Source of the DNA: Agrobacterium vaccinii
Lineage (GTDB): Bacteria > Pseudomonadota > Alphaproteobacteria > Rhizobiales > Rhizobiaceae
Length of the DNA: 64,000 bases
NCBI RefSeq assembly: GCF_021310995.1
Contig: NZ_CP054150.1
Span: 62,001 to 126,000 of the forward strand
Direction of reading: 5' to 3'
The translations under genes were made by a program, and so were the position numbers. Positions 54,085 through 55,750 of the stretch are shown here, one piece after another (within the stretch, counting starts at the first letter, position 1; each line of letters begins with the position of its first letter). Below the pieces are notes generated by a model, which was not told where the DNA came from, searched no databases, and saw only the letters and a program-made list of their open reading frames with translations.

Positions 54085-54200
54085 CATTCCCAATCCCCTG
54101 ACATCGGGATTTGGGAACCGAACTTTGGTGCCGGGCCCCTCTGGCGAGAGTTTTACGGCGCTCTCGCGATGTCGGTACCGCCTGCTTATGACGCCGGCGG
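54085..54200 (+). ncRNA. Candidate structured 5' leader upstream of DUF475
   Basis: Several strong stems follow each other upstream of DUF475. TTCCCAATCCC (54087-54097) pairs with GGGATTTGGGAA (54106-54117) with one bulge. GCGAGAG (54144-54150) pairs with CTCTCGC (54161-54167) inside an outer GGTGCC/GGTACC pairing (54127-54132, 54174-54179). CCGCC (54178-54182) pairs with GGCGG (54196-54200), competing by two bases with the previous stem. The gap 53861-54302 is otherwise free of genes. A weak TTGACG with a GACTAA 17 bases further lies just before it. TerC-like genes are often riboswitch-controlled, but the GGGGAGUAG motif of the manganese riboswitch is absent, so this is only a candidate. Confidence 0.4.
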
Positions 54201-55409: not shown

Positions 55410-55483
55410 CGCTATTAACGCCGCTTAACTCTTCGAGTGAACGGCGCGGAATTGTGCGATTGAAGAATATCGCTTAAAATATG

Positions 55484-55515
55484 AGCTTCGGCGGTGCCTC
55501 CGCCGAAGCTTTTTG
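55484..55515 (+). terminator. Intrinsic terminator of the DUF475 gene
   Basis: AGCTTCGGCGG (55484-55494) pairs perfectly with CCGCCGAAGCT (55500-55510) around a five-base loop, then TTTTTGTTTG. It lies 75 bases after the DUF475 stop, so the segment 55516-55750 is not simply its 3' end. Confidence 0.9.
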
Positions 55516-55559: not shown

Positions 55560-55576
55560 CTGGCACGCTTGATGCG
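55560..55576 (+). promoter_or_regulatory. Candidate sigma-54 (-24/-12) promoter
   Basis: CTGGCACG, four bases, then ATGCG: the GG at 55562-55563 and GC at 55574-55575 are separated by exactly ten bases, as sigma-54 promoters require. The left half is a full match to the consensus CTGGCAC. The right half has ATGC instead of TTGC. Initiation would be expected near 55587, just before the first hairpin of the small-RNA candidate. Confidence 0.5.
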
Positions 55577-55586
55577 TGTATCTCTT

Positions 55587-55683
55587 CAAGTCCAGAGGGG
55601 ACGCTAGCTCGAAAACGAGCGCAAGAGCCGCCGCCACATCGATGCGCACGTCAGTGCAGACACGGTGGGCGGCGGTTTTGTTT
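55587..55683 (+). ncRNA. Candidate small RNA (about 95 nt) with three hairpins and a terminator
   Basis: From the predicted sigma-54 start there are three stems in order. GTCC/GGAC (55590-55593 with 55599-55602) is the first, and GCTCG/CGAGC with an AAAA loop (55607-55620) is the second. The last is an 8-bp GC stem CCGCCGCC/GGCGGCGG (55628-55635 with 55668-55675), with an inner GCAC/GTGC hairpin, followed by TTTTGTTTTG. It lies between two complete terminators and contains no credible coding frame. Rhizobial trans-acting RNAs such as the nitrogen-controlled MmgR family have this three-stem form; membership is not established. It could instead be an attenuated leader of the following MarR-like gene. 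Confidence 0.5.
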
Positions 55684-55750
55684 TGTTCATTGATTTGCGC
55701 CAAAATCCGCTGGTGACTTTTTGGGATTGCAAACGTACGGAGTTGGATAC

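Follow-up and report, generated by a model that had tools for sequence, protein, structure and literature searches.

The RNA gene and its predicted promoter

Between a DUF475 gene and a MarR gene, the window (the whole 64,000-nucleotide stretch of Agrobacterium vaccinii DNA that was analysed) contains a free-standing RNA gene at 55561-55685, composed of a -24/-12 element, a predicted start near 55587, three hairpins and a terminator. What the original prediction saw in the sequence here, a promoter match followed by a segment of hairpins, is confirmed. The predicted sigma-54 promoter, TGGCACGCTTGATGCG (55561-55576, + strand), has the exact 10-base GG-GC spacing that had been claimed for it and lies, as GG-N10-GC within the genus-wide pattern TGGCAY-N6-TGC, 11-13 nt before the start. 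It departs from TGGCACGN4TTGCW at two positions, with A in place of T in the -12 half and G in place of A/T as the last base, where only one mismatch, in the -12 half, had first been reported. The bare motif is not significant in the window, where 11 sites with at most two mismatches compare with 14.58 expected from shuffles; with the promoter alone at chance level, it is conservation that decides.

The RNA would span about 99 nt (55587-55685, + strand), its start being placed 12 nt past the promoter GC and its 3' end at the T run. This segment folds at -50 kcal/mol (z -5.84, with 0 of 200 shuffles equally stable) into three hairpins in the order foreseen. The 5' element AAGTCCAGAGGGGAC (55588-55602, + strand) begins 12 bases past the GC and encloses hairpin 1, GUCC(AGAGG)GGAC (55590-55602, + strand), which is followed by hairpin 2, GCUCG(AAAA)CGAGC (55607-55620, + strand). 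In the terminator hairpin (55628-55685, + strand), backed by fold and conservation, the stem is formed by CCGCCGCC and GGCGGCGG, and TTTTGTTTTG comes after it. A simple terminator scan of the window does not list this structure because of its long loop. The scan does list the terminator of the DUF475 gene (55483-55511, + strand; fold z -6.38), which separates DUF475 from the RNA gene and bears out the earlier view that the segment is isolated on that side.

Searched against Rfam, the RNA has no match at the gathering threshold, and up to an E value of 10 only chance-level hits to MIR7510, FsrA and SNORD66 appear. The suggested kinship with MmgR, which we take to belong to the Rfam suhB/ar8 family, therefore finds no backing. 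The sole gathering-level Rfam match within the window is a terC RNA (RF03067, 64.7 bits) at 54123-54184, upstream of the DUF475 gene.

Conservation in the genus and family

A BLAST search with a 181-base query against 41 genomes matched 23, among them 22 of the 25 genomes of the genus (that of the window included); three genus genomes gave no match. The exact 15-mer AAGTCCAGAGGGGAC and TGGCAY-N6-TGC are present at all 22 matched genus loci, separated by 12 nt in 20 of them and by 13 nt in the other two. The core is missing from a match in another family and from a second match in the window's own genome. That genome holds one exact copy of AAGTCCAGAGGGGAC; allowing two mismatches yields three matches, compared with 11 for a reversed control pattern, and no nitrate genes were seen beside these three.

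A covariance model built from the RNA without its promoter, and run on 297 family genomes, matched 23. Outside the genus it marked 18 places, of which 12 contain the exact 13-base core, every one of them preceded by the promoter. Another keeps 12 of the 13 core bases and has no promoter, and the other five, without the core, look false. The combined pattern of promoter and core was found in 104 of 394 family genomes and its reversed control in none of the 394. Removal of one non-canonical match leaves 103 genomes, each with a single copy save one (G268) with two, and the RNA is present across 26 genera. A scan of named genomes recovered at least 119 stretches with the RNA; among the matches listed, the titles include Agrobacterium, Rhizobium, Neorhizobium, Sinorhizobium/Ensifer, Shinella, Ciceribacter and Nitratireductor, while two MAG titles outside this group (Arenimonas and Bradyrhizobium) may be mislabelled.

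A lack of compensatory changes in the stems had been named in advance as an argument against the RNA, and it fails, since hairpin 2 changes on both sides of its stem. Across 26 Agrobacterium-type loci, 24 fit the stem pattern and two do not. Within the 24, the third pair is U-A in 12, C-G in eight and U-G in four, and the first is G-C in 13, G-U in nine and A-U in two; six have lost the inner, fifth pair. Whereas hairpin 2 covaries, the letters of the 5' hairpin are invariant in the 22 genus loci. In other genera this invariance is partly selected, the exact core having been part of the search pattern, except at the 12 covariance-model places. The 5' hairpin appears to be fixed in stem and loop alike, beyond the demands of structure alone.

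Neighbouring genes

The company that the RNA keeps is variable. Among the matches listed (119 named loci, with neighbours from crude ORF calling), 36 have a luxR-like gene before the RNA and mrp/apbC after it, 25 have the luxR-like gene only, 19 mrp/apbC only, and 39 neither; DUF475 is a neighbour in five and NlpC in six. All of these counts are low because of strand mis-calls. Beyond the Agrobacterium group this RNA sits at other loci, so the part in MarR/NlpC regulation that had been proposed for it is not supported. The mrp locus of the window's own genome reads luxR, NasS-like gene, mrp, and the RNA is absent there. The NasS-like gene of this locus (L244 5773-6954) is without nasT, and such a gene also adjoins the RNA, on its upstream side, in A. 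vitis and Ciceribacter.

Upstream sites and probable nitrogen control

A degenerate enhancer-like site, GAATTGTGCGATTGAAGAATA (55448-55468, + strand), lies about 91 bp before the promoter; its score of 8.1 is below the null 95% value of 8.66, and neither strict TGC-N3-GCA nor strict TGC-N11-GCA occurs upstream of the RNA in the window. The family as a whole has an upstream motif, TTTTGTGC-N3-GCACAAAA, mostly 59-124 bp before the promoter, which exceeds the null 99% value in 55 of 136 RNA upstream regions, most regions falling short. TGC-N3-GCA was found in 52 of the 136 (7.3 in shuffles) and in 29 of 49 nitrate-operon upstream regions (1.8), and TGC-N11-GCA in 43 (7.2) and 32 (1.6), respectively, with shuffles that keep single-base content only and species that are related. 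These two spacings are the most enriched ones upstream of RNA and nitrate operons alike. A motif trained only on the RNA upstream regions exceeds the null 99% value in 22 of the 49 nitrate-operon regions. Enhancer site and sigma-54 pattern together occur in 54 of 394 genomes, as against two of 394 for the reversed pattern, and the matches fetched include nitrate and hydantoin/N-scavenging operons. One operon with the same enhancer-like site and sigma-54 promoter (L234-L239) encodes a PotA-like ABC transporter and a hydantoin-racemase-like protein, with a divergent GntR-type gene.

TGC-N11-GCA is given as the NtrC motif in the available part of PMC10746234. The enrichment of the N3 and N11 spacings, together with the nitrogen-scavenging targets, points to NtrC as the likely activator, and the nitrogen control envisaged in the original prediction draws its support from relatives of the RNA. 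For the window copy it is less certain, because its own site is degenerate and the strict spacings are absent. DctD was considered as an activator and set aside, the dctA sites of the same genome (TGTGTGGATTTCCGCACA and CGCGGAAATCCGCACA) being differently spaced. Helical phasing of the enhancer site was not significant at 10.5 bp; the value of 0.037 at 12.5 bp is the only nominal one, from one among several periods tried.

Probable relationship to nitrate-assimilation leaders

The single ANTAR protein of the window's genome is NasT. Behind its gene lie nasS and a sigma-54 element and then, ahead of nrtABC-nirB-nasA, the leader hairpin CUCGGUC(AAUGGC)GAUCGAG and a terminator. Some copies of the RNA family occupy a comparable setting. 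Among the 119 matches listed, a NasS-type gene precedes the RNA in six, and, with genes named from sequence, one locus reads nasS, RNA, nrtA, ATPase, nirB (L162), another nasT, nasS, RNA, putative narK, and a third has nirB downstream of the RNA. The alternative once entertained, that the hairpin segment is a leader, divides: for the window a simple leader is improbable, but in some relatives the hairpin is the leader of a nitrate-assimilation operon.

From 53 regions taken behind nasT, 48 have a sigma-54 element and a usable leader. The core GTCCAGAGGGGAC is present, with the same promoter, in eight of the 48 (eight genomes) and absent from 40. The eight were picked because core and nasT had already been placed close together in those genomes, and the 40 come from 39 genomes with the core elsewhere and one (G231) without a core match; since the core is single-copy, its presence in the leader and elsewhere is mutually exclusive by construction, and no probability is attached to the division. 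Searches of the literature for NasT, sRNA, Rhizobium and nitrate assimilation returned nothing, and the link between RNA and nitrate leader was not found in the literature searched; that the free-standing RNA and the nitrate leader of eight genomes have a 5' hairpin and a promoter in common appears to be new.

The mark of an ANTAR target, as described in the accessible parts of PMC3369931 and PMC8164766, is hexaloop hairpins with A1 and G4. Such hairpins occur in all 40 core-less leaders (2.84 in shuffles) and in all eight core leaders; of the 131 free-standing RNAs, 19 have one, where shuffles give 10.2. A few free-standing copies still show AACGAA or AATGAA in the loop, with the closing pair broken. 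The window RNA does not have the two A1/G4 hexaloop stem-loops of an ANTAR target: the loop of hairpin 2 is AAAA, and that of hairpin 1, AGAGG, does have A1 and G4 but is five bases long.

Nitrate-operon leaders in other family genomes, here labelled the Mesorhizobium type (L240 5275-5475 and L241 5015-5215), have a sigma-54 promoter, a GGCC(GAAA)GGCC hairpin and a GGCGUCC(AAGGAC)GGGCGCC hexaloop hairpin, and share CUCCCGGAUG(U/G)ACGGAC with the Sinorhizobium sRNA copies. Near the beginning of nrtA, RNA-like leader sequence can still be made out (L240 from 5286, L162 from 105), so that leader and free-standing copies could be aligned for a tree.

Proposed function and alternatives

Sequence and conservation between them establish a predicted promoter, start region, three hairpins and terminator, present in single copy among changing neighbours. 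The conservation of promoter and core, and the fold, support the original proposal of an independent small RNA, driven by sigma-54 and closed by a terminator of its own, an interpretation that is, as a whole, partly supported. The reading favoured here, at a probability of roughly 0.68, is that of a sigma-54-dependent sRNA gene that is induced by NtrC, acts in trans via its 5' hairpin and is kin to the NasT leader. An enhancer-binding protein, most likely NtrC, would switch the RNA on under nitrogen shortage, and the RNA would act in trans through the invariant hairpin GUCC(AGAGG)GGAC, which a partner RNA or protein would read by sequence. Perfect 11-base targets (the complement being GTCCCCTCTGG) number none besides the RNA itself in its own genome and only eight non-self sites in 14 genomes. 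The RNA and the leader of NasT-controlled nitrate-assimilation operons may well have a common ancestry, copies like that of the window having presumably lost the hairpin recognized by NasT and kept promoter, 5' hairpin and terminator.

A broader scheme, put forward tentatively and with the odds somewhat against it, has a single nitrogen promoter driving a single 5' RNA module, which is present in one copy either in the terminated leader of the nitrate operon or as a separate sRNA gene. The leader, short and terminated, would then serve in trans as an sRNA as well; in Agrobacterium and most Rhizobium this job would have split off into its own gene, one that persists where NasT and nitrate assimilation have been lost.

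One rival holds that the RNA is a decoy (sponge) for NasT, made under nitrogen limitation to delay nitrate assimilation. It draws on the promoter, enhancer spacing and 5' core common to RNA and NasT leaders, on NasT being the only ANTAR protein of the genome, on the precedent of EutX/Rli55 for EutV (in the part of PMC7602753 available) and on co-occurrence in the family, where 87 genomes have both, 16 the RNA only, 126 NasT only and 165 neither (odds ratio 7.1); these counts are conservative, the best eight NasT candidates per genome having been scored and the exact core demanded of the RNA. Within the 26 RNA-bearing genera, however, 16 of 25 genomes lacking NasT keep the RNA, as do 87 of 102 with NasT (stratified odds ratio 2.4), and 10 of the 16 RNA-keeping genomes without NasT have no ANTAR domain at all; the hexaloop, moreover, is mostly lost from free-standing copies. 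An obligatory NasT partner or decoy is accordingly not supported, and with co-occurrence weak within genera the decoy stays a rival, though an unlikely one.

The remaining explanations carry less weight. The AGAGGGG of the RNA resembles a Shine-Dalgarno sequence, and its GAGG is complementary to the CCUC of CCUCCUCCC loops (available portion of PMC3927594), so it might soak up by base-pairing sRNAs with anti-SD loops such as NfeR1/AbcR; this is a resemblance only, the complementarity is short and unspecific, and the idea is quite improbable. That the segment serves the MarR/NlpC genes as 5' leader or attenuator is more doubtful still: the next frame begins on the same strand some 35-70 bases past the terminator, but that terminator closes the RNA, and promoter and RNA stay while neighbours change. 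A chance pattern without function would suit the chance-level promoter motif of the window but can be given hardly any credence against conservation across 26 genera, a promoter at 12 of 12 core places and a pattern count set against zero for its reverse.

If the favoured reading is right, an orphan rhizobial sRNA family becomes tied both to the nitrogen regulon and to the leaders of nitrate operons, and leader RNA and free-standing sRNA, with one module in common, offer a case that can be traced. The 13-base core is offered as a candidate functional element for mutation, and the search for the RNA's partner becomes directly testable.

Comparison with known systems

Like MmgR and NfeR1 (PMC7143759 and PMC10746234, as far as their available parts go), the RNA would be a nitrogen-linked rhizobial sRNA, but NfeR1 is described in the same part of PMC10746234 as having a sigma-70 promoter. 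As a stand-alone RNA akin to an ANTAR leader it recalls the ANTAR-sequestering EutX and Rli55 (PMC7602753, in part); it differs in having no riboswitch, in the loss of the ANTAR signature and in being kept without NasT. The resemblance to the NasT leaders, as portrayed in excerpts of PMC3369931, PMC8164766 and PMC3795266, extends to sigma-54 promoter, enhancer spacing, hairpin order and terminator, with the same 5' core in eight genomes, whereas the window RNA is without the A1/G4 hexaloop and without a downstream nitrate gene.

The RNA probably belongs to the SmelC165 family. The available parts of PMC3927594 and PMC7143759 describe SmelC165 as a trans-encoded S. meliloti sRNA of 116 nt, single-copy and with a predicted RpoN promoter, located at 910182-910297 in strain 1021 (PMC7143759). 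Its family is given there as one of Rhizobiaceae, with Sinorhizobium and Rhizobium members in complete microsynteny and without relatives in A. tumefaciens and A. radiobacter (PMC3927594). No function for SmelC165 was found in the literature searched, supplementary tables aside, and the core sequence turned up only in unrelated papers. The window RNA differs from these partial accounts in its DUF475/MarR flanks, which would break the microsynteny, and in that what is probably the same family is found here in the A. tumefaciens/A. radiobacter group, at another locus and with a shorter body. It agrees with them in its single chromosomal copy with an RpoN promoter. Among the matches listed, luxR-like and mrp genes, which we infer to be the flanks of SmelC165, enclose the RNA in 36 of the 119 named loci, and the Sinorhizobium RNAs whose length could be measured, five of nine, are 112-115 nt long, counted as far as the first T at their end. 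The SmelC165 family would thereby be extended to Agrobacterium.
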